DNA from: Methanoculleus methanifontis
GTDB taxonomy: Archaea; Halobacteriota; Methanomicrobia; Methanomicrobiales; Methanoculleaceae
Length of the DNA stretch: 64,000 nt
Direction: 5' to 3'
NCBI RefSeq assembly: GCF_030464365.1
Contig: NZ_VCYI01000002.1
Span: 164,593-228,592 of the forward strand
Part shown: one piece after another, positions 19,848 through 64,000 of the stretch
Numbering within the stretch: position 1 is the first letter of the stretch
Layout of the letters: the number at the start of each line of letters is the position of its first letter
Notes under the pieces: generated by a model
Databases searched by the model: none
What the model was told of the DNA's origin: nothing
Seen by the model: the letters and a program-made list of their open reading frames with translations, nothing else
Translations under genes and position numbers: made by a program

Positions 19848-20129
19848 TCACCGGCGTGAATACTCCTTGTGTGCCCTCTCGATCGTCACGATCTTCTCGA
19901 TCTTGACGATGCTCTCCTGATGCTCGATGATATAAAAAACAGTGAAGGATCTGCTGATATGGAGGCGGTAGACTGCAGGGGGATGAGGATACTCAAGTTT
20001 CTCCTTGTTCCCTCCCGGAAACGGGTCCTCCGCGAGTTCCTGGATCTTTTCGACGACAATGCGCCGGGTTTTTGGGGGGAGACGCTTTAAGAGCTCCCGT
20101 GCCTTCCTCTCGATCAGAACGGTGAACAC
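19848..20129 (-). CDS. RelE-family mRNA interferase toxin
   Basis: A 93-residue RelE/ParE-fold protein: KARELLKRLPPKTRRIVVEKI, the DPFPGGNKEKLE loop, then VYRLHISRSFTVFYII and a C-terminal IERAHKEYSRR that holds the usual catalytic Arg/Tyr. The start is GTG 20129. The antitoxin gene lies 21 bases upstream. It aligns with the toxins at 21404 and 44457, so three paralogous modules occur in this window. Confidence 0.82.
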   Translation of the reverse strand: MFTVLIERKARELLKRLPPKTRRIVVEKIQELAEDPFPGGNKEKLEYPHPPAVYRLHISRSFTVFYIIEHQESIVKIEKIVTIERAHKEYSRR

Positions 20130-20483: not shown

Positions 20484-20730
20484 GCTCCGTTCCTGTCGGA
20501 ACATCCGTATTTCGAAACCCTTTGGGTTTCTCAAACTCCGTTCCTGTCGGAACATCGTATTTCGAAACCCTTTGGGTTTCTCAAACTCCGTTCCTGTCGG
20601 AACATCGTATTTCGAAACCCTTTGGGTTTCTCAAACTCCGTTCCTGTCGGAACATCGTATTTCGAAACCCTTTGGGTTTCTCATGCTCGCTACACCCGCA
20701 CTTCGTACCTGACGGTGCTCAAGCTCCGTT
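20484..20730. repeat. Tandem palindrome array 1 (50-51 bp units)
   Basis: Four near-identical direct repeats begin at 20489, 20540, 20590 and 20640. Each unit has a short hairpin GTTCC-TGTC-GGAAC, a spacer ATCGTATTTC, a hairpin with stem GAAACCC, loop TTT, and a linker TCAAACTCC. A further GTACC-TGAC-GGTGC hairpin and a TCAAGCTCC linker follow at about 20706-20728. There are no unique spacers, so it is not CRISPR. Every open frame across it is the repeat itself. The array fills the gap between the relBE operon and a DUF1016 remnant. Confidence 0.85.
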
Positions 20731-20771
20731 TCACCGCCAGAGCAGTAATCATTATAGCCGCATATTCACAA

Positions 20772-21053
20772 CTATCCAGGCCCGTACTCTGCTATCAATT
20801 CTTTCGACAGCGTCGAAAGAATTCTCTTACCGTATGGTGCTCGTTCTTCTTTGAGAATATCTCTGCCGATTCGATTGCCGATATGCCAGTACAGCAGGAC
20901 CAGTTCGACGTTCACCGCAGTCGCAGCGCGGCCTTTTGCCGTCCGGATCAGGTCACGAAGATCTGAAAGGAGGAAGGAAATATCCTGTTCTAAAGGGTGG
21001 GTGTCACTAATCGGTTGCAACGCTGTATCATGCTGTCTGGCCTTCCGTGTCAT
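20772..21053 (-). pseudogene. N-terminal remnant of a DUF1016/YhcG-type nuclease
   Basis: A 93-codon frame containing LLSDLRDLIRTAKGRAATAVNVELVLLYWHIGNRI and YGKRILSTLSKELIAEYG, the conserved N-terminal domain of YhcG/PDDEXK nucleases of about 350 residues. It stops with TAG right after AEYG, where intact proteins continue into the nuclease half. Nothing recognisable follows before array 1, so the gene was truncated at the array side. Confidence 0.65.
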
Positions 21054-21221
21054 CTGCGATCGCCCTCCCGGATATTCTCCCTGCTGATGTGTATGTTCGG
21101 GCAGAGGGAGTATTCTGGTCGTGTTCCGGGCCGCAGGTGGTTCCGGTCCGTGGCGGAGCCATCACGGATGGACATTCTATCGACAATCTTTTCTGTCTGT
21201 GACATCTATACCATAGATGCC

Positions 21222-21407
21222 ATGAATGCCACAAAGCGCATTATTGTCAGGGAAGAGGTCTGGGCTGCCCTCTCCAGTATGCGCAAGCCGGGGATGACCT
21301 TCTCCGAACTGATAGAGGAGATGATCGAGCACGAAAAGAAGCGGCGGCTCGTTGAAGATATCAGGCGGATCCAGGAGACGGAAGAGCTCGTGGAGATCCC
21401 GTTGTGA
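21222..21407 (+). CDS. RelB-like antitoxin
   Basis: A 61-residue protein: KRIIVREEVWAALSSMRKPGMTFSELIEEMIEHEKKRRL and an acidic tail ending EELVEIPL. It resembles the antitoxins at 44744 and 20151. Its TGA overlaps the toxin GTG start (GTGA). The short protein suggests a ribbon-helix-helix-like DNA-binding N-terminus (inference). Confidence 0.75.
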   Translation: MNATKRIIVREEVWAALSSMRKPGMTFSELIEEMIEHEKKRRLVEDIRRIQETEELVEIPL

Positions 21408-21691
21408 CGTTCGCCGTTCTGTTCCGGCAGTCTGCAGCGGACTTCCTGCACAGCCTCCCGGAGAAGTCGCAGCACATCATCACGGCGAAACTTGCTATTC
21501 TGCGGATCGATCCTTATCCGGGTAGCGGAGGAGACAAAGAGCGCCTGAATACGGGTGATACGGAGGTGTTCCGCCTTCATATAGGACGGACATTTACCGC
21601 GATCTATCTCATCCATACCGACAGGAACCGGGTCGAGATCACTCACCTGATGACCATTGAGCAGGCGCATAAACACTACGGCAGGCTTTAA
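21404..21691 (+). CDS. RelE-family toxin
   Basis: A 95-residue RelE-fold protein with the same landmarks as the copy at 19848: FLHSLPEKSQHIITAKL, DPYPGSGGDKERL, VFRLHIGRTFTAIYLI and IEQAHKHYGRL. It starts at GTG 21404 inside the antitoxin stop. It appears to have been inserted beside the remnant of another gene, whose last recognisable codons lie just after this stop on the opposite strand. Confidence 0.83.
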   Translation: MTFAVLFRQSAADFLHSLPEKSQHIITAKLAILRIDPYPGSGGDKERLNTGDTEVFRLHIGRTFTAIYLIHTDRNRVEITHLMTIEQAHKHYGRL

Positions 21692-21816
21692 GTAACTGGC
21701 TGATACCCATTTCTTGCTTCTCCCAACCAGTTGAGCAATCTCCCCGGCAGAGGAGGGGCGCACGCTGCAAATCTGAACGATAACTCGCATGACTTCCTGT
21801 GGCGAACTCCTTTTAC
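21692..21816 (-). pseudogene. C-terminal piece of an AlbA_2/RecG-like HTH regulator, separated by the TnpB element
   Basis: On the minus strand the frame reads KRSSPQEVMRVIVQICSVRPSSAGEIAQLVGRS and ends near SASYL, a C-terminal winged-helix segment of the ATP-binding 'divergent AAA_4' regulators. It joins in frame to the piece at 23042-23400 if the element at 21817-23041 is removed. Homology ends where the RelE gene begins, so its own 3' end is also lost. Confidence 0.6.
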
Positions 21817-21908
21817 GAAGAAAACAGGCAGAAGGCCCCCCACTTTAGTGGGGGGATGAATGCCGTCCATCGATAATCATATTACGCACCGTGGCGTATA
21901 AAACTATA

Positions 21909-23000
21909 ATGCGTAAGGCATGTCGGTATCGACTCTATCCCTCAAAGTCTCAGACGACTCTGCTTGAGCAGACGCTTGAGATCTGTCGGTGGGTCTATAA
22001 CGATACGCTCGCATTGCGAAAGAACGCCTGGGAGCAGGAGCAGCATACTATCTCTCTCTACGAAACCAACAAGATCCTGACACAGTGGAAGAAGCAACGA
22101 TCCGATCTGAATCGGGTTCATTCTCAGGTCCTCCAGAACGTTCAGGTTCGAGTGGATCTTGCCTTCAAATCGTTTTTCAGGCGCGTAAAAGCAGGGGAGA
22201 ACCCCGGATATCCTCGGTTCAAGGGGAAGGGACGATACGATAGTATCACGTACAAACAGTCCGGGTTCAAACTTGACGGGGATCGCCTCCACCTCTCGAA
22301 GATCGGAGACGTGAGGGTCGTCCTCCACCGTCCGGTTGAAGGGACGATCAAGACCCTCACGATCCGGCGGTCTTCGACTGGAAAGTGGTATGCCTGTTTC
22401 TCGGTTGAGTACGATCCCCCTCCCCTCCCACAGAAAGAGTCGGTCGTCGGGATCGATGTGGGTCTGGAGTCCTTCGCCACCTTCTCCAACGGGGAGAAGA
22501 TCGAGAATCCCCGGTTCTTCCGTACCGACGAGAAAGATCTCGCCAGGGCGCAGAGGAAACTCTCGAAGGCAGAGAAGGGCACTCCTGAACGGAAGAAGGC
22601 CCGGAAGATCGTCGCACACGTCTATGAACGGATCGCCAATAGACGGCTCAATTTTGCTCACCAAACCTCCCGGAAGGTGGTGAATCGGTTTGGTACAATT
22701 GTGTTCGAGGATCTGAATATCACAAACATGCAGAAGAACCACCATCTGGCAAAAAGCATTGCAGATGTCGCCTGGAATATGTTCATCACGATCACAGAGA
22801 GCAAAGCGGAGGATGCTGGCTCACGCGTGATCCTGGTCAACCCCAGAAACACATCTCAGATATGCTCCAGATGTGGGATGATCGTCGCCAAGACGCTCTC
22901 TGATCGAGTCCATTCCTGCCCGCATTGTGGGCTGGTGATGGATCGCGACCAGAACGCGGCGATCAATATTATGAGATTGGGGCTGCAATCTCAGGGGTGA
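21909..23000 (+). CDS. tnpB: TnpB RNA-guided nuclease (OrfB)
   Basis: A 363-residue protein that looks intact. The RuvC-like triad is visible: Asp183 in GIDVG, Glu267 in FEDLNI and Asp347 in DRDQNAAINI. Between the last two lies the zinc knuckle CSRCG...CPHCG. The N-terminal wedge/REC-like region (YRLYPSKSQ, RRVKAGENPGYPRFK) is complete. Family members are omega-RNA-guided DNA endonucleases, ancestors of Cas12. The start is ATG 21909; an in-frame GTG at 21891 adds only six residues. Confidence 0.92.
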   Translation: MRKACRYRLYPSKSQTTLLEQTLEICRWVYNDTLALRKNAWEQEQHTISLYETNKILTQWKKQRSDLNRVHSQVLQNVQVRVDLAFKSFFRRVKAGENPGYPRFKGKGRYDSITYKQSGFKLDGDRLHLSKIGDVRVVLHRPVEGTIKTLTIRRSSTGKWYACFSVEYDPPPLPQKESVVGIDVGLESFATFSNGEKIENPRFFRTDEKDLARAQRKLSKAEKGTPERKKARKIVAHVYERIANRRLNFAHQTSRKVVNRFGTIVFEDLNITNMQKNHHLAKSIADVAWNMFITITESKAEDAGSRVILVNPRNTSQICSRCGMIVAKTLSDRVHSCPHCGLVMDRDQNAAINIMRLGLQSQG

Positions 23001-23041
23001 TATCCCAAGATGCCCCCGACTTCAGTCGGGGGAGCAGTCAC
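22890..23041 (+). ncRNA. Predicted omega-RNA (reRNA) scaffold at the right end
   Basis: In this family the guide RNA overlaps the 3' end of tnpB and ends at the right border, with the guide read from flanking DNA. Here the scaffold would end with the 8-bp hairpin at 23013-23032 and AGCAGTCAC; the current guide would begin CCAGCATTCTTATTG at 23042. The 5' limit is a guess. The position is from family knowledge, not from any direct signal of transcription. Confidence 0.4.
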
Positions 23042-23400
23042 CCAGCATTCTTATTGATTCGGCAATATCCGGTAGGATTGCTTCAGAATCCACACTCAGA
23101 GTCTCCCCCACATCCAACGAAACCTCCACCTGCTGGTGAGTTGTGCACACAGGGGCAACCCCGAGCTGCCCGGTGGGAGTGTAAAAGGTCATCGCGCCAT
23201 GAGGGTGCTGGATAAGGAAGCCCGGATCCCGGAGTTTCCCGAGCAATTTGCTTGCCCCGATCACATCAAGTCCGGTCAGATCGCGGCACTGCTCATTCGA
23301 GATAGACCCGTTCCGCCTGACAAAGACGAGAGCCATCGCCTCTTCATCGGATAGGTCAGCAACGCTGAAGCCACGGAGCCATTCGAGTTCTTCCTCATTC
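23042..23400 (-). pseudogene. Middle piece of an AlbA_2/RecG-like HTH regulator, N-terminus lost
   Basis: The minus-strand frame reads EEELEWLRGFSVADLSDEEAMALVFVRRNGSISNEQCRDLTGLDVIGASKLLGKLRDPGFL and continues to SIRMLG at the TnpB border. This is the winged-helix tail of ATP-binding transcriptional regulators. Its upstream part ends exactly where a palindrome array starts (23401), so the gene has lost its N-terminal AlbA_2 domain there, and it is interrupted by TnpB at the other end. Confidence 0.65.
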
Positions 23401-23545
23401 GCACCTTCGGTGCTCCTGCTCCGTTCCTTACGGAACATCGCACCCTATGGCCCGTCGCACCCTACCCCCTGGGGGGGCAGTCATGGCGATAAGCGATGGT
23501 TCGAAGAACCTGAGCTAGAGCACCGTCAGGTGCGATACCTGGTGG
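23401..23545. repeat. Palindrome cluster at the truncated end of the HTH regulator
   Basis: Hairpin GCACC-TTC-GGTGC, linker TCCTGCTCC, hairpin GTTCC-TTAC-GGAAC, ATCGCACC, then a C-rich/G-rich hairpin near 23462-23477. In opposite orientation follow GGTTC-GAA-GAACC, TGAGCTAGA and GCACC-GTCA-GGTGC near 23506-23535. The same modules as in arrays 1 and 5 appear in both orientations. The stretch 23546-23670 holds nothing I recognise. Confidence 0.7.
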
Positions 23546-23670
23546 AAAGCCGTGCCCCTGAGTACCCCCTGATTGTGGCCATCTGGAGCAAACAGGTGGG
23601 ATTTCAACAAAGCCCATTTTCCTGCATTGAGGGTAGGGAGACCTCAACCGGGATAGGCTTCCCCAACCTT

Positions 23671-24084
23671 TTAGTGGAGAGGTTCTTCCGGTTCAACCTC
23701 TGCTGGTGTCAATCTACCGCCGGGTGTCCTCTCAAAATCGCTGTCAAACGACACAAGCGCAAGGCTGTGCTCAAACGCTGCGGTATATTGGTATGCATCA
23801 TCAAAATCGAGGCGGTACAGTTCCATGGCCCGCGCGAGGCGTCTCATCTGGGCGGGATCGAGAGCGACCACCGTCACCGAACCGTCGATGAAGAGATCTT
23901 CGATGAAACTGCAGAAGGCCGATATACACCCGAGACGGCCGAGGATTACACCAATGGAATGGAGTGAAAAATCCGTGATGAACAACCGTTCGGAAGGAAC
24001 AGAGGAGAGGAATTTCTCGACTTCTCCCGAACGGCCCTGATCGAGAAGGCGCTCCAACCAGATATTTGTGTCCAGAAGGTACAT
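23671..24084 (-). CDS. vapC: PIN-domain toxin (VapC)
   Basis: A 137-residue PIN nuclease starting MYLLDTNIWLERLL with the first catalytic Asp5; later acidic residues are in RLDFDDAYQY and SFDSDFER. PIN toxins cut tRNA or rRNA. It starts 3 bases after the DUF2281 antitoxin stop. The C-terminus ends EVEPEEPLH. A decayed copy of the start of this gene and the end of its antitoxin is found at 47.7 kb. Confidence 0.85.
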   Translation of the reverse strand: MYLLDTNIWLERLLDQGRSGEVEKFLSSVPSERLFITDFSLHSIGVILGRLGCISAFCSFIEDLFIDGSVTVVALDPAQMRRLARAMELYRLDFDDAYQYTAAFEHSLALVSFDSDFERTPGGRLTPAEVEPEEPLH

Positions 24085-24087
24085 TTT

Positions 24088-24294
24088 TCACTCTGTGCGC
24101 CACGACAGCGATTCTTTCTGCAGTTCAAGAGCGGTGTAAGTACCCCGATACCGACGAAGCGCCCCTGCCCAGGTTTGCCGGAGTGGTTTAGCCTGTTTGC
24201 GCTTCTGTTTCTGGAGGAGGTAGGCGACAAAGTCCAGTGCCTCTCTCTGGTGTTCGGGGGAGAGTTCCTTCACGAGATCTTCGATACCTGCCAT
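24088..24294 (-). CDS. DUF2281-type antitoxin (VapB-like)
   Basis: A 68-residue protein: ELSPEHQREALDFVAYLLQKQKRKQ followed by PLRQTWAGALRRYRGTYTALELQKESLSWR. DUF2281 proteins pair with PIN toxins; the tail with TALELQ and W binds the toxin. The start at ATG 24294 has GGAG about 11 bases upstream; ATG 24303 is too close to that site. Confidence 0.78.
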   Translation of the reverse strand: MAGIEDLVKELSPEHQREALDFVAYLLQKQKRKQAKPLRQTWAGALRRYRGTYTALELQKESLSWRTE

Positions 24295-24532
24295 GACATC
24301 CATCTCTCCGCAAGGATCTACGGACCCGGGTGCGTTCTCACCTGGAAGCGTTTCGGGCCAGATCCGGATGAACATCTATTGAGCGAGGCCGGACAAGAAT
24401 GTTTTCCTCCCCGGTCTTTCTTTCTGTCTTATATCGCATCGGGTGGTAAACAGCATGCATATGCGGATAACGGAAATATCTGATACAATATGAGGTGATC
24501 CTAAAGTTATACTGATTATGGAATTCTAAATC
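24295..24532. other. Intergenic region between vapB and the transposase remnant
   Basis: I see no convincing gene. The section 24450-24530 is AT-rich and may hold the promoter of the former transposase gene (TACAATATGAGG region). No palindromes of the array type occur here. Confidence 0.4.
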
Positions 24533-24718
24533 ATGGCGTTTCGTGAAATTGACGATGATCTCCGGGAGTTCGTCCAGAACCACCTCCCCCAACGAAGCCG
24601 CATATCGGGCGACCCCGGTGTGACCCGCGCAGGCCACGAAAAATCGAAGATTTTTCTAACAGGAGAACGCTGAGGCGTTCTCCATGTGTTCAACGGCATC
24701 CTGTACGTCCTGACGACC
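24533..24718 (+). pseudogene. N-terminal remnant of an IS5-type transposase, split by a two-hairpin element
   Basis: From ATG 24533 the frame reads MAFREIDDDLREFVQNHLPQ, typical of small IS5/ISL2-type transposases (usually M-x-F-x-EI-x-DE-L-W). After a 48-base insertion it continues VFNGILYVLTT, the next conserved block of the same family. The inserted element brings an in-frame TGA, and after 24718 the homology ends in unrelated palindrome DNA. A C-terminal transposase remnant of the same family lies at 38.9 kb in the opposite orientation. Confidence 0.7.
24638..24685. repeat. Solitary two-hairpin element A inside a transposase gene
   Basis: Hairpin 1 is GAAAAATC-GAA-GATTTTTC (638-656), spacer TAACA, hairpin 2 is GGAGAACGC-TGAG-GCGTTCTCC (662-683), then AT. 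The 48 bases separate two adjacent conserved transposase blocks (RAGH and VFNGIL), so they are an insertion. The architecture matches elements B and C, although the stem sequences differ. Confidence 0.75.
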
Positions 24719-24791
24719 AGATTCCCTTCTCCGACTCCCGGGGGGAACCGGTCAACCCCTTCCTGGAGAAGGGGCCTATCCCGGCCCCCCT

Positions 24792-25210
24792 CACACCTCC
24801 CGGTGCTCGAACGTCGTTTCTTCGTACCTTCGGTGCTCACGCTCACTACGTTCGTTCCTCGAAGACCTTCGGTCTTCTCGAACTCCTGTCCCGCAACTCG
24901 CACCTTCGGTGCTCGAACTCCTGCCCCGAAAACGCTTCGCGTTTTCTCATGCTCCTGCTCGAAGCCTAACGGCTTCTCAAGCTCCGGACATTGTCCGTCG
25001 CACCGTTCCGGCAGTCGCACCCTACGGCAGTCGTTCCTCGAAGACCTTCGGCCTTCTCGAACTCCTTCCCCTTCGGGGAAGTCGTTCCTCGCACCTCGCA
25101 CCTGCGGTACTCGAACTTCGTTCAATAGGAACGTCGTTCCTAGCGGTACTCGAACTCCTGCCCCGAAGACCGAAGGTCTTCTCGAACTCCTGCCCTTCGG
25201 CCAGTCGTTC
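24792..25210. repeat. Palindrome array 2, about 420 bp with some 15 mini-hairpins
   Basis: A dense series of short perfect stems with TTC or similar loops: GAAGACC-TTC-GGTCTTC, GCACC-TTC-GGTGC, GAAAACGC-TTC-GCGTTTTC, GAAGCC-TAAC-GGCTTC, TTCCCC-TTC-GGGGAA, GAAGACC-GAA-GGTCTTC. They are joined by TCGAACTCCT, TCATGCTCCT or TCAAGCTCC linkers. Stem sequences vary by compensatory change, while linkers stay. It occupies the whole space before the first glycosyltransferase; the open frame through it is a by-product. Confidence 0.85.
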
Positions 25211-25261: not shown

Positions 25262-26392
25262 TTGCTCCTGAAGATCGCCTACGTCTACGATGCCGTCTAC
25301 CCCTGGGTGAAGGGCGGGGTCGAGAAGCGCATCCGCGAGGTCTCGGTCCGGCTCGCGGACCGGGGGCACGAGGTCCACGTCTACGGGATGCGCTGCTGGG
25401 ACGGCCCGGCCGTGATCGAGCGCGACGGGGTGACCCTTCACGGCGTCTGTCCGGGTGAAGGGCTCTATATTGATGGCCGGCGGACGGTCCCGCAGGCGCT
25501 CCGGTTCGGGAAGGCGGTGCTCCGGCCGCTCCTCTCCTCCGGCGCCGACGTCGTCGACTGCCAGAACTTCCCCTACTTCTCCTGTTTTGCGACGAAGGCG
25601 GCGTCGGTGCGGCGGGGGTTCCCGCTCGTCGTCACCTGGCACGAGGTCTGGGGCGACTACTGGTACGACTACCTCGGCCGCCGGGGGGCGTTCGGGAAGG
25701 CCGTCGAGCAGCTGGCCGCCGGGCTCACCGATCACCACATCGCCGTCTCGCCCTCGACGGCCCGGGCGCTCGCGGGCCTCGGGGTCTCGGGGCCGGTCCC
25801 GGTCGTCCCGAACGGGATTGATCTCGCGCGGATTGCGGCCGTCCCCCCGGCGGCGGAGGAGTGGGACGTCATCTTCACCGGCCGGCTGATCCGGGAAAAG
25901 AACGTCGACGTCCTCCTCCGGGCGCTCGTGCGGGTTCGGGAGGAGGTTCCCGACCTTCGCGCCCTGATCGTCGGCGACGGCCCGGAGCGGCCGGCGCTCG
26001 AGCGGCTCGCGCGCGATCTCGGGCTTGACGGGGCAGTGACATTTACCGGTTTTCTCCCCGATTACGACTCGGTCGTCGCCGCGATGAAGGCATCACGGGT
26101 CTTCGTCCTCCCCTCGACCCGCGAGGGCTTCGGGATCGCGGCGCTGGAGGCGATGGCCTGCGGGATTCCGGTGGTGACGACGGATCACCCCGGGAACGCG
26201 GCGGGGGACCTGGTTGTCCCGGGGGTGAACGGGTACCGCCCGGGGCTCTCGGCGGGGGAGATCGGGGAGGGGATTGTAAAAATTCTTTGTAATTCGAATA
26301 TTGATGACCGTAAATGTGTGACACTGGCAGAGACTTACGACTGGAATCGAATTGTTGAAGCGCTTGAACAGCGGTACTCCGCTATTGTATAG
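25262..26392 (+). CDS. GT4-family glycosyltransferase, first gene of the glycan locus
   Basis: A GT-B-fold enzyme of about 376 residues. It begins KIAYVYDAVYPWVKGGVEKRI (glycine-rich acceptor loop) and has the donor-site signature PSTREGFGIAALEAMACGIPVV near the C-terminus, with NGIDL and FTGRLIREKNVD typical of retaining GT4 enzymes. The start is unsure: TTG 25262 abuts the GGAGGG site, while CTG 25268 has ideal 6-base spacing and gives MKIAYV. The last 110 bases (from about 26275) are abruptly AT-rich, unlike the rest of the gene, suggesting a recombination join. Donor and acceptor sugars are unknown. Confidence 0.88.
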   Translation: MLLKIAYVYDAVYPWVKGGVEKRIREVSVRLADRGHEVHVYGMRCWDGPAVIERDGVTLHGVCPGEGLYIDGRRTVPQALRFGKAVLRPLLSSGADVVDCQNFPYFSCFATKAASVRRGFPLVVTWHEVWGDYWYDYLGRRGAFGKAVEQLAAGLTDHHIAVSPSTARALAGLGVSGPVPVVPNGIDLARIAAVPPAAEEWDVIFTGRLIREKNVDVLLRALVRVREEVPDLRALIVGDGPERPALERLARDLGLDGAVTFTGFLPDYDSVVAAMKASRVFVLPSTREGFGIAALEAMACGIPVVTTDHPGNAAGDLVVPGVNGYRPGLSAGEIGEGIVKILCNSNIDDRKCVTLAETYDWNRIVEALEQRYSAIV

Positions 26393-38853: not shown

Positions 38854-39068
38854 TCATCCCCATGTTCTCCCGAGCATGACTATGTATGCCAGGTAGATCA
38901 GTCTCAGGAATGGGTGTTCATAGCATTCGTATTGAGGAATAATTTCCTGAACGCCTCGATCCAGCTGAAGAAACGTTCGACGGCATTGCACTTCTTGTAG
39001 AGTTCCCGATAAAACCCGAACGGTCTCCCACGTTCCGGATGGTTTTTCTTGAGTACCCTAGAAGTCAT
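38854..39068 (-). pseudogene. C-terminal remnant of an IS5-type transposase with a frameshift
   Basis: From ATG 39068 the frame reads RGRPFGFYRELYKKCNAVERFFSWIEAFRK, the conserved last DDE-domain block of IS5-type transposases. A frameshift after FRK moves the reading to IPQYECYEHPFLRLIYLAYIVML, ending at 38854. N-terminal parts are gone. It marks the right edge of the glycan locus, as the N-terminal remnant at 24.5 kb marks the left. Confidence 0.7.
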
Positions 39069-39204
39069 CATTTCATGGCATTCCTTCGATCACCCTTGCC
39101 CACGATCGCCCCCTTCACCCCCCGCTGAGCACCCGCACAATCACCGCCACCACCCCGCCGACGATCCCGCCGGCCCCGGCGCTGATCGTGGAAACCCGTT
39201 TTTC

Positions 39205-39410
39205 TCGCACCTTGCGGTGCTCGAACTCCTGCTCCGCACCTTCGGTGCTCATGCTCCGGCCCTTCGGGCCATCGCACCCTGCGGCCAGTCGCTCTTCTCC
39301 AACCTTTTCCGCCCGCCACCCCTCCAGCGCCCGGAGCCGGGCCTCGAACTCCTCGTTCGAAGACCTTCGGTCTTCTCACGCTCCCGCCCTGCGGCCGGTC
39401 GCGTCCCACT
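39205..39410. repeat. Palindrome array 3
   Basis: Hairpins GCACC-TTGC-GGTGC, GCACC-TTC-GGTGC, GGCCC-TTC-GGGCC, ACCCTGCGGCCAG-type and GAAGACC-TTC-GGTCTTC with linkers TCGAACTCCTG and TCATGCTCC. This is the same module set as array 2. It lies between the transposase remnant and the gene at 39735. The rest of 38745-39734 holds only the remnant, this array and element C. Confidence 0.8.
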
Positions 39411-39668
39411 CCTCCATCCGTTGCAGCGCCCGACAGATCCATTTTACGTCCCGGTTCGTCTCGTAAGACCGAGCTCCCGGGTGGTCTTTTCGTTGGTCAT
39501 CCAGGCAATCCTCCCGCGGGACTATAGGAGGCCGGGGACAAAAAGGCTGACCGTAACGGCTATATTTCAGAATCTGAGCCAAATACGGGCCTTTTGATAA
39601 AGTCAGGCTAATCCCCTCTCGGGTCTACCCTATAGTTGTCTGTCATATTCCCGGGAGCATGCAGGCAC

Positions 39669-45893: not shown

Positions 45894-46048
45894 TCCTGAT
45901 CGGGATATGTGCCGTTCTCTCTAGTATAACTATCCCCGGGGCATGCCGGTTCGCGGGTCTGGGGCCCGTGATGGTTCTCCCGGTGTCGGGTGGAGGAGCA
46001 AGGTCGGTCGTGGCTGCTCTGGGAGACGATCCGTGAATGCAAAAGACT

Positions 46049-46147
46049 CAGTACTTCGCTAAATTGTTTGAGACAGCCCTCAGGAGATCACACCATTGAC
46101 TTCCCTTCGCAAACTTCCGCGACTCGCACCCTCGGTGCTCAAGCTCC
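46049..46147. repeat. Dispersed repeat copy R1
   Basis: From CAGTACTTCGCTAAA to GGTGCTCAAGCTC this stretch aligns base by base, without gaps over most of its length, to 63690-63788. Shared blocks include CATTGACTTCCCTT and GGTGCTCAAGCTC. It leads directly into palindromes on both occasions. No gene is recognised in it. Confidence 0.65.
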
Positions 46148-46180
46148 TATCCGAAACCCTTCGGGTTTCGGACGGGAGGT
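46125..46180. repeat. Short palindrome cluster 4
   Basis: GCACC-CTC-GGTGC, TCAAGCTCCTAT, then CCGAAACCC-TTC-GGGTTTCGG (46153-46173). This is the same hairpin/linker grammar as the larger arrays. The remainder of 45894-46268 holds only R1 and no gene. Confidence 0.7.
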
Positions 46181-46268: not shown

Positions 46269-47534
46269 TCACCAGCAGATCCCCTCTATCCCGTCGCAGG
46301 CGAGGATCCGGCGCCCCTCGATGACGACCCGGGACTTCATCAGGTCGAACTCCCCGTTGAGGGCGGAGAACTCCGGCCACTCCGTCATCACCAGGCAGGC
46401 GTCGGCCCCCCGGAGGGCGTCCGCGGCCGAGGCGGCGTAGCCGATGCCGGGGAAGACCCGCCGCATCGAAGGTACCGCAAGCGGGTCATAGGCGGCGACC
46501 GCCGCTCCCCGCCGGAGGAGTTCCGCGATGACCGGGATCGCCCGGGACTCCCGGATGTCGTCGGTGTTGTCCTTGAAGGCGAGGCCGAGGACGGCGACCC
46601 GTTTCCCCGCGAGGTCGCCGATCCTCTCCTCGAGCAGCCCCACCATCCGGAGCGGCTGGCGGTCGTTGACGTCGAGGACCGACCGGAGGAGTGCGGGCTC
46701 TTCACCGAGCCCTTCCGCGAGGCTGACAAGGGCCGCGACGTCTTTGGGGAAGCAGCTCCCCCCGAACCCGGCGCCGGCGGATAGAAAGTGCGGCGAGACC
46801 CGGTGATCCATCCCGACGCCCTCCATCACCTCGTAAACGTCGATCCCGAGGCTTTTACAGATGTTTCCCACCTCGTTTGAAAACGAGATCTTCGTCGCGA
46901 GGAGGGCGTTCGAGGCGTACTTGATCATCTCCGCGGCGGTGAGTCCGCACCGCACCACCGGGGCCGAAAGCCCCCGGTAGACCGCGGCGACGGCCTCGCC
47001 GGAATTCTCATCCCGGCTCCCGATCACGATCCGGTCCGGGTGCAGGAAGTCATCCACCGCGAGCCCTTCGCGGAGGAACTCCGGGTTCATCGCGAACCCG
47101 ATCTCGTCCCGGCCGGCGTGTTCGAGCACCGCGGGCACGACGAGGCCCGCCGTCGTCCCCGGCGGCACGGTGCTCTTCACCACGACGGTGTGCGAGCCCT
47201 TTCCATCGCGGAGCGCCTCCCCGATCGACCGGCTCGCCGCGGCGACCATCGAGAGGTCGGCGCTCCCGTCGGCCGCCGGCGGGGTCCCGACGCAGACAAA
47301 CGAGAGGTCCGCTTCCGCAACCGGGCCGTAGTCCGTCCCCGCACGGAGCCGCTTTCCGGCATGCTTCTCCAGAAGCGCATCGAGGCCCCGCTCGTGGATC
47401 GGGGCGCGCCCGGCGTTGATCGCCGCCGCCTTCTCCGCATCGATCTCGACGATATCGACCGTATGCCCGAGCCCGGCAAAGCAGGCACCCGTGACCAGGC
47501 CGACGTACCCCCCGCCGACGACAGTTATCCGCAT
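46269..47534 (-). CDS. UDP-glucose/GDP-mannose 6-dehydrogenase (AglM/Ugd type)
   Basis: A 421-residue NAD-dependent dehydrogenase that oxidises a nucleotide hexose to the uronate. GGGYVGLVTG near the N-terminus binds NAD; the catalytic Cys261 is in GFGGSCFPKD; KYASNALLATKISFSNE and FKDNTDDIRES are family hallmarks. It probably acts on UDP-glucose supplied by the nucleotidyltransferase 2 kb away. The start is ATG 47534. Confidence 0.93.
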   Translation of the reverse strand: MRITVVGGGYVGLVTGACFAGLGHTVDIVEIDAEKAAAINAGRAPIHERGLDALLEKHAGKRLRAGTDYGPVAEADLSFVCVGTPPAADGSADLSMVAAASRSIGEALRDGKGSHTVVVKSTVPPGTTAGLVVPAVLEHAGRDEIGFAMNPEFLREGLAVDDFLHPDRIVIGSRDENSGEAVAAVYRGLSAPVVRCGLTAAEMIKYASNALLATKISFSNEVGNICKSLGIDVYEVMEGVGMDHRVSPHFLSAGAGFGGSCFPKDVAALVSLAEGLGEEPALLRSVLDVNDRQPLRMVGLLEERIGDLAGKRVAVLGLAFKDNTDDIRESRAIPVIAELLRRGAAVAAYDPLAVPSMRRVFPGIGYAASAADALRGADACLVMTEWPEFSALNGEFDLMKSRVVIEGRRILACDGIEGICW

Positions 47535-63689: not shown

Positions 63690-63788
63690 CAGTACTTCGC
63701 TAAAATGGCTGAGGTAGTTTTCAAGAGGTCAACCCATTGACTTCCCTTTGCGTTCTTCGCGGCCCGCACCTGGCGGTGCTCAAGCTCG
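63690..63788. repeat. Dispersed repeat copy R2
   Basis: Counterpart of R1 at 46049-46147; both start CAGTACTTCGCTAAA, share CATTGACTTCCCTT and end GGTGCTCAAGCTC, and both lead into palindromes. R2 follows the aIF1A gene. Confidence 0.65.
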
Positions 63789-64000
63789 CTGCGCTCGCAC
63801 TTCGCGTGAGTTGATGGGCGAAGATACCAATACGGTCTCACGCGAAGAGCGCGAAGCCGCGAAGTGCGATGTTCCATCAGGAACAGAGCTCGAGCACCGC
63901 AAGGTGTGAAGTGCGATGTTCCATCAGGAACAGAGCTCGAGCACCGCAAGGTGTGAAGTGCGATGTTCCATCAGGAACCGAGCTCGAGCACCGCAAGGTG
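63765..64000. repeat. Palindrome array 5, 47-bp direct repeats running off the window
   Basis: Three direct repeats of 47 bases start at 63861, 63908 and 63955, the third cut by the window end. Each has GAAGTGCGAT, hairpin GTTCC-ATCA-GGAAC, linker AGAGCTCGA, and a GCACC/GGTGT hairpin. The reverse complement has the same module order as array 1. Before it, other hairpins (GCACC-TGGC-GGTGC, GCGAAG modules) lie at 63765-63860. Confidence 0.85.

Follow-up and report, generated by a model that had tools for sequence, protein, structure and literature searches.

Double-hairpin elements of Allomyces mitochondrial DNA were reportedly described by Paquin et al. in 2000. Short mobile hairpins without a carrier have been described from mitochondria and, in the portions of two accounts that were available, how they move is debated (PMC2800124, PMC4478555). 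The Allomyces elements are presented in the available text as short, non-coding sequences of two hairpins that are proposed to be mobile, that lack flanking duplications and whose copy number differs between close relatives (PMC2800124), and the yeast GC clusters (GC42) as 42-nucleotide (nt) palindromic sequences of constrained structure that proliferate fast and whose units are merged and shuffled, no transposase being named in the part of that account available (PMC4478555). The GTAG and CGTC repetitive extragenic palindromes (REPs), according to the available sections of their description, are high-copy, mostly intergenic palindromes of 20-40 base pairs (bp) from phyla that are bacterial where named, and the CGTC REPs also have no dedicated transposase (PMC3733652). 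Here we describe a repeat unit of about 45 bp that occurs in six arrays in a stretch of Methanoculleus methanifontis DNA (assembly GCF_030464365.1, contig NZ_VCYI01000002.1, positions 164,593 to 228,592). This stretch of 64,000 nt, which was analysed as a whole and is called the window, is the end of one contig of a genome of 2.61 Mb.

The unit is an asymmetric element made of two tiny unlike hairpins, A and B, in fixed order. Units of this anatomy covary in their stems, are dispersed over the genus, lie inserted at sites that are empty elsewhere, are nested in one another and have grown in tandem. With a probability of roughly 55%, we read the arrays as a double-hairpin DNA element that was inserted at many Methanoculleus sites, repeatedly in its own loops, and that an enzyme acting in trans likely moves as folded single-stranded DNA. 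Like the mitochondrial double-hairpin elements and GC clusters, the units have two short hairpins, are mostly non-coding and dispersed, and differ by insertion polymorphism between relatives, and the best reading is that they may work like those elements. The likeness to the Allomyces elements is one of description, and those elements are mitochondrial and fungal and, in the text available, lack the flanking duplication, which is mostly 1-2 bp here (PMC2800124). The GNA/GNNA loop rule, the TC/TC junctions and the outer stem between linker and tail are described here for an archaeal chromosome, unlike the Allomyces elements. In yeast GC clusters, as far as the available text goes, changes concentrate in the loops, whereas in the archaeal units the loop type is fixed and stem B varies with compensation (PMC4478555). 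No earlier description of the unit was found in the literature searched, some of it available in part, nor any name for it in Rfam, which had 0 matches above a curated threshold in the window, and the accessible part of the RepRanger genome table lists no Methanoculleus (PMC12306157).

Anatomy and covariation of the unit

Read 5' to 3' on the strand on which hairpin A comes first (the A-first strand), the unit consists of TC, hairpin A, the nine-base linker TCNNRCTCC, hairpin B and RTCGNN, that is, TC-[stem A, loop TNC or TNNC]-TC-N-(N N C)-TC-(C [stem B, loop TNC] R)-TC-(G N N), and its length is about 45 bp when both hairpins are 5-3-5. The stems are mostly of 5-8 bp and none starts with AT, the loops are mostly of 3-4 nt, and the commonest A stems are GCACC, GAAGACC, CCACC, GAAACCC, GAAGCC or GAAAACGC. 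Of 177 units picked without regard to hairpin A, by linker and hairpin B only, 139 had an A stem that pairs perfectly over 5 bp or more; TC stands before hairpin A in 146 of 189 units and after it by definition. When pairing was not demanded in a 2.14-Mb sample of sequences from several genomes, overlaps included, distances of 13, 14 and 15 nt from the linker to the following RTCG had 103, 33 and 9 distinct cases, and distances of 9, 10, 11, 12, 16 and 17 nt had 0, 1, 2, 2, 1 and 1. Among 103 units of one set, the left arm of hairpin B (5 nt) took 34 distinct forms, and the GTTCC-NNNN-GGAAC hairpin that an earlier note on this DNA had made a fixed part of the arrays is real, but it is only one of these 34. 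The four nucleotides preceding stem A are often CTTC, CCTC or CTCC, the tag of CGTC REPs being CGTC, TGTC or CCTC. In the available text, CGTC REPs have stems of 8-9 bp that start with AT, loops of 4-5 nt and a tail CCA, and are mostly inverted dimers (PMC3733652), and the units have neither that stem nor that tail.

A script that searched for a hairpin followed by the linker found 19 cases in the window compared to 1.05 (maximum 5) in 100 dinucleotide shuffles, and when the second hairpin and RTCG were also demanded it found 8 compared to 0.02 (maximum 1). In 449 kb of the same genome, which comprises the window and 385 kb chosen partly around matches, the hairpin and linker occurred 100 times, whereas 20 dinucleotide shuffles gave a mean of 7.8 (maximum 14) and the reversed sequence gave 12, and on adding hairpin B and RTCG the count was 34, against 0.05 (maximum 1) shuffled and 0 reversed. 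A covariance model of 41 positions was built from 52 genus units, some of them from the window, which match by construction. It gave 22 matches in the window at E<=0.001, and 21 of these fall, to within a few bases, in the six places that the earlier note had assigned to one modular family, an assignment that is thereby upheld. The remaining match, at 25975-26005 (E 1.5e-4), is inside a glycosyltransferase gene and is probably due to chance.

The compensating stem changes that had been proposed for the arrays go beyond chance. The Watson-Crick fraction of stem B in 103 units was 0.852 compared to a shuffled mean of 0.514 (maximum 0.565) and to at most 0.416 when the arms were slid, and the 52-unit alignment, which leans towards structure because its units were admitted by loose pairing thresholds, had a covariation score of 0.419 compared to 0.114 shuffled and at most 0.090 slid. 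The linker, which had been taken as constant, is near-constant, but its positions 4 and 5 covary with the two bases that follow RTCG. Linker base 5 pairs with the base after RTCG in 162 of 189 units (shuffled mean 92.2, maximum 116) and linker base 4 pairs with the second base after RTCG (tail 6) in 123 of 189 (shuffled mean 85.4, maximum 103), the partners being AAC with GTT in 68 units, TGC with GCA in 28 and CGC with GCG in 2. Because of this pairing, a TC/TC internal loop commonly separates an outer stem of hairpin B from its inner stem. A further pair, between the base before TC and linker position 3, was rejected as its frequency of 89/189 lies inside the shuffled range (mean 77, maximum 99).

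The TNC and TNNC loops and the TC junctions of the A-first strand are GNA and GNNA loops and GA/GA junctions on the complementary strand. On that strand 446 of 514 A loops are GNA or GNNA (323 GNA, 109 GNYA and 14 GNRA), compared to 200 of the 1475 hairpins of other kinds in the own-genome sample, for which either strand was counted, and the computed folding energy is lower for the complementary strand in 177 of 184 units, whether RNA or DNA parameters are used. GNA and GNNA loops on G-C stems are described, in the portion of the source available, as extraordinarily stable, nuclease-resistant mini-hairpins of single-stranded DNA (PMC4686876). The loop class fits single-stranded DNA more than RNA. 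Nearly all unpaired positions of the unit are G or A on the complementary strand, and so that strand would fold into stable mini-hairpins.

Insertion, nesting and spread

For 178 of 218 complete units, a count that takes in neighbours within tandem arrays, the sequences compared contain a place where the two flanks adjoin. In the 153 tighter matches the insert was equal to the hairpins and linker plus 10 bases in 72 cases and plus 9 bases in 25. Of 63 strict empty sites, 34 imply a target duplication of 2 bp and 16 one of 1 bp (50/63). A duplication of 4 bp was first suggested by left and right identity in 41 of 123 cases against a mean of 13.3 (maximum 23). However, agreement with the empty site by position was 64, 55, 47 and 62 of 72 on the left and 68, 67, 67 and 69 of 72 on the right, and since mismatches to the empty site are far commoner in the left copy than in the right one, the TC beside stem A belongs to the element and the 4-bp duplication was rejected. 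Synteny of the whole window with genomes G044, G003 and G019 breaks near 55.6 kb, and therefore in that comparison only the side that carries the gene for eIF-1A (a Pfam match) could yield an orthologous site. The site downstream of this gene has no unit in G023 or G050, a single 47-bp one in G044 and at least three in tandem, those of array 6b described below, in M. methanifontis.

Units are also inserted into units. In 38 of 299 units that have no hairpin B beside the linker, the right arm of hairpin B with RTCG was found 20-260 nt downstream, compared to 1 of 299 with the arm reversed and 11 of 299 with the arm of another unit, and in the cases inspected the inserts that split hairpin B were one or more further units. 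Four distinct insertions are in the TTC loop of hairpin A. Targets lay inside a hairpin of at least 5 bp at 17 of the 63 strict sites compared to 6 at control positions, and thus insertion favours hairpin loops but can do without them. Units have often multiplied in tandem as well, as in G019, where nine matches follow one another at 45-bp steps. The earlier note had left selection or copying as what acts on structure; of the two, copying is better supported, as units are inserted, tandemly grown and nested.

Other repeats host units as well. A second repeat family (CAGTACTTCGCTAAA...ATTGACTTCCCTT...TTCGCGTGAG...CTCACGCGAAG) has units inserted in it at 63690-63868 of the window, is represented by its start only at 46042-46115, and is also found at the eIF-1A site of G023, a genome with one match to the unit pattern. 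A larger repeat (GGACCGTGG.GGATATCGCC ... GGGGCTGACGGGGAG ... CCCCTCCCCTGTCTC ... GGGGCAGTGCGTGGCGATATCC), which looks like a separate dispersed element, bears units at recurrent points in several genomes (L013, L041, L056) and is partly present at 23450-23600 of the window.

The full-grammar pattern GGTGCTCNNRCTCC-B-RTCG, limited to a single class of A stem, matched in 31 of 35 genus genomes, with a maximum of 103 matches in G019 and 91 in M. methanifontis, and outside the genus, in a search of 232 genomes of the order, 7 times in one sister-genus genome and once or twice in five other genomes; the reversed control pattern matched twice in the 232 genomes. When related genomes were searched with the covariance model, as the earlier note had advised, the family was found in 34 of 35 genus genomes and in 27 of the 197 outside the genus. 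Sister-genus genome G092 gave 28 matches and the other matching genomes outside the genus gave 1-6 each, these counts per genome being lower bounds (28 candidates per genome scored). The exact repeat was present at at least 80 loci, in records titled Methanoculleus, Methanoculleus sediminis S3Fa among them, and in others titled Euryarchaeota or Methanomicrobiales archaeon. With genes called by a simple script in the own-genome sample, 57 of 65 units were outside genes, and six of the eight in-gene units make up the array at 24869-25173 of the window, which falls inside a gene because the script began a glycosyltransferase gene upstream of its likely start at 25262. The earlier claim that arrays fill intergenic space agrees with most units, but the array at 39205-39401 lies within a small minus-strand reading frame and is not purely intergenic.

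How the unit may move

If the unit moves as we propose, the folded complementary single strand would be its working form, its two unusually stable mini-hairpins being what moves. Insertion would be targeted to pyrimidine-rich YYYC sites, and the nesting of units within arrays would follow if the loops of existing units offer such a YYYC site; slippage or unequal recombination would then add tandem copies. A bolder version, which we consider rather unlikely, is that of a geneless archaeal element without a dedicated transposase, in which a strand of about 45 nt with two GNA-capped mini-hairpins and tandem G-A junctions would be recognised by its shape and not by its stem sequence and would insert into its own loops, so that arrays would be nested brackets.

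Six families were sought over the 35 genus genomes as candidate mobilisers, namely Y1 (PF01797), IS110 (PF02371), rve, DDE_Tnp_1, TnpB (PF07282) and reverse transcriptase (RT), and genomes with at least 30 pattern matches, of which there are 16, were taken as unit-rich. Y1 was lacking in 15 of these 16, IS110 in 16, rve in 15, RT in 14, DDE_Tnp_1 in 4 and TnpB in 3. DDE_Tnp_1 genes were found in 31 of the 35 genus genomes and were unmatched in unit-rich G005, G007 (93% complete), G015 (80% complete) and G048, and the rank correlation with unit number was negative for five of the six families. Genome G019, which is one contig and has the most units, has only two DDE_Tnp_1 matches and no Y1, IS110, rve, TnpB or RT, and G048 has three TnpB and one RT but no Y1, IS110, rve or DDE_Tnp_1. 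A long version of the element with genes between distant A and B ends was looked for in 2.1 Mb, whole genomes not being searched, and none stood out, with 21 arm matches more than 250 nt apart compared to 24 in the control. Two unit-poor genomes are rich in transposases, the reverse of most unit-rich genomes: G020 has 19 Y1, 55 TnpB and 7 DDE_Tnp_1 and no pattern matches, and G023 has 3 Y1, 22 TnpB and 15 DDE_Tnp_1 and one pattern match. The window itself has an IS605-type TnpB gene at 21891-23000 (PF12323, PF01385, PF07282) with perfect hairpins at 21836-21855 and 23013-23032, and this gene is not a general answer to the mobility of the units.

Several results weigh against an element moved as a folded strand by an enzyme. 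No mobiliser was found, in that none of the six families is in all 16 unit-rich genomes, other transposase families not having been searched, and the movement itself is deduced from comparison. The lagging-strand or replichore bias that a single-strand model might predict was not seen either in G019 (60 matches; permutation p 0.12 and 0.44) or in G003 (31 matches; 0.34 and 0.59). Many empty sites are paralogous and are in other repeat families, with 39 distinct targets among the 50 sites of 1-2 bp, and so they are not all independent, and 13 of the 63 strict sites imply other duplication lengths. The host sequence of the eIF-1A site was common to just 4 of 30 loci compared, and the insertions there are discordant, the left unit being in M. 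methanifontis and G050 and the right unit in M. methanifontis and G044, which means that loss, recombination or repeated insertion must also occur. As to structure, AGC with GCA, in 44 of 189 units, pairs at one of the two outer positions only, the outer stem is not universal, its two pairs being unpaired in 8 and 7 of 27 varied units, and in the 52-unit alignment hairpin A is near-constant among units of equal length with no pair changed on both sides, the other forms of hairpin A being separate stem types.

The strongest alternative, although in our judgement an unlikely one, is that no dedicated enzyme is involved and that units arise by template switching in replication or by microhomology-mediated repair, with synthesis stalling at the stable hairpin and a copy of it being joined to a YTC-like microhomology elsewhere. 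This would accord with the failure of any of the six families to be universal in unit-rich genomes, with target duplications that are mostly 1-2 bp and variable, with nested hosts that are hairpins whose loops resemble the element's own ends, and with the commonness of tandem growth, but about 100 dispersed copies with fixed ends would be hard to reach by rare repair and the element length is sharply peaked. It is less probable still, and we consider it improbable, that the unit is a miniature element cross-mobilised as double-stranded DNA by an ordinary transposase, for example of a hairpin-targeting insertion sequence (IS), that has since been lost from many genomes or that belongs to a family outside the six searched. 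Bacterial IS of five families, in the text available, hit fixed points in REPs and leave direct repeats of none, 2, 3 or 6 bp (PMC1525189), which resembles the fixed insertion place in a palindrome and the short direct repeats of the units. Such IS carry transposase genes, as described in the available text, whereas here the inserted thing is the hairpin unit itself (PMC1525189). The wide occurrence of DDE_Tnp_1 in the genus favours cross-mobilisation; the four unit-rich genomes without it, the absence of the other five families from G019 and the negative rank correlations do not. As read from the units, moreover, the ends TC-stemA and RTCGNN are unlike when inverted, so that there are no terminal inverted repeats, and membership among miniature inverted-repeat transposable elements was rejected on this ground.

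It is very improbable that the units are a structured RNA or a terminator or processing signal selected in transcripts, to which covarying stems and an excess in convergent intergenic regions (24 of 56 units compared to 23.1% of intergenic bases) would be suited. Orientation relative to co-directional neighbour genes is even (12 same, 11 opposite), units are present or absent at orthologous sites, Rfam had no match in the window, and the loops are of the DNA type. GNRA is the subset of GNNA loops that RNA would favour, and only 14 of the 123 GNNA loops are GNRA. The UUCG-like RNA loop suggested in the earlier note does not hold either, since TTC is a triloop closed by C-G and none of 514 family A hairpins had a TTCG tetraloop in the best register. 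Equally hard to credit are archaeal REPs moved by a REP-associated tyrosine transposase (RAYT), since, for all that the units are high-copy, mostly intergenic, hairpin-forming and tagged at their ends, Y1 is missing from the M. methanifontis genome and 15 of 16 unit-rich genomes and is commonest in G020 (19), which has no pattern matches, the GTAG tag is absent from the consensus (whose foot has TC ahead of A and RTCG behind B), and the two different hairpins are arranged head-to-tail in fixed order and not as inverted pairs.

The arrays of the window and their significance

Array 1 consists of four 50-bp tandem units at 20485..20683 on the plus strand (A GAAACCC-TTT-GGGTTTC, linker TCAAACTCC, B GTTCC-TGTC-GGAAC, tail ATCGTA) and ends with a degenerate or truncated unit at 20703..20736, also plus (model E 1.2e-4). 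Beside it, at 19848-20129 on the minus strand, is a weak ParE-like match that is below cut-off. Array 2 has a first unit at 23399..23440, plus strand (GCACC-TTC-GGTGC / TCCTGCTCC / GTTCC-TTAC-GGAAC / ATCGCA), and a second on the opposite, minus strand at 23494..23535 (GCACC-TGAC-GGTGC / TCTAGCTCA / GGTTC-TTC-GAACC / ATCGCT). Array 3, at 24791..25207 on the plus strand, is a mosaic in which whole, partial and nested units, at least seven in all, are combined; it has seven model matches and lies upstream of a GT4-type glycosyltransferase gene (25262-26392). A PIN-domain/DUF2281 pair, which is toxin-antitoxin-like, is at 23671-24375 on the minus strand beside arrays 2 and 3.

Array 4 has a unit half followed by a full unit at 39205..39274 (4a, plus), which the related G002 sequence (L048) lacks here, and a unit at 39357..39401 (4b, plus; GAAGACC-TTC-GGTCTTC / TCACGCTCC / CGCCC-TGC-GGCCG / GTCGCG). 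The small reading frame around it, at 39068-39480 on the minus strand (RDVKWIC...LRALEGWRAEKVGEE...RVSTISAGAGG), is interrupted by unit insertions; at 39.2 kb it has 30 extra in-frame codons in M. methanifontis, units included, that are absent in G002 (L048 1340-1690), and another stretch of the same frame in M. methanifontis has a stop. Array 5 is a single unit at 46124..46170, plus strand, with hairpin A GCACC-CTC-GGTGC, just past the 3' end of a UDP-glucose/GDP-mannose dehydrogenase gene (46269-47534, minus). Array 6 has a variant unit made of hairpin A and TCAAGCTC at 63764..63797 (6a, plus), absent here in G044 and G023 and present in G050, and three 47-bp tandem units at 63861..64000 (6b, minus) that run to the window end, which is the contig end. 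Units at this site are therefore often gained, lost or exchanged. The tie to toxin-antitoxin and glycan genes that the earlier note had drawn from these neighbours is not specific, since one array follows the eIF-1A gene and units are intergenic generally.

Two satellite families of M. marisnigri, Fam_48_45_4 and Fam_102_51_3, of 45 and 51 nt, are listed in the available part of table 2 of PMC6749651 as tandem repeats without mention of hairpins, and from the genus and the 45-nt period we would guess that the 45-nt satellites are tandem copies of the unit. For annotators it matters that units resemble satellites and can create spurious open reading frames. A family of short hairpins of the kind described from mitochondria is now found in archaeal chromosomes, with about 100 pattern matches per genome at most, a peaked length and empty sites, and the nesting of its units records the order of insertion. 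The rule that one strand has G or A at the fixed unpaired positions is physically testable and may give a handle on the protein that handles the folded strand.

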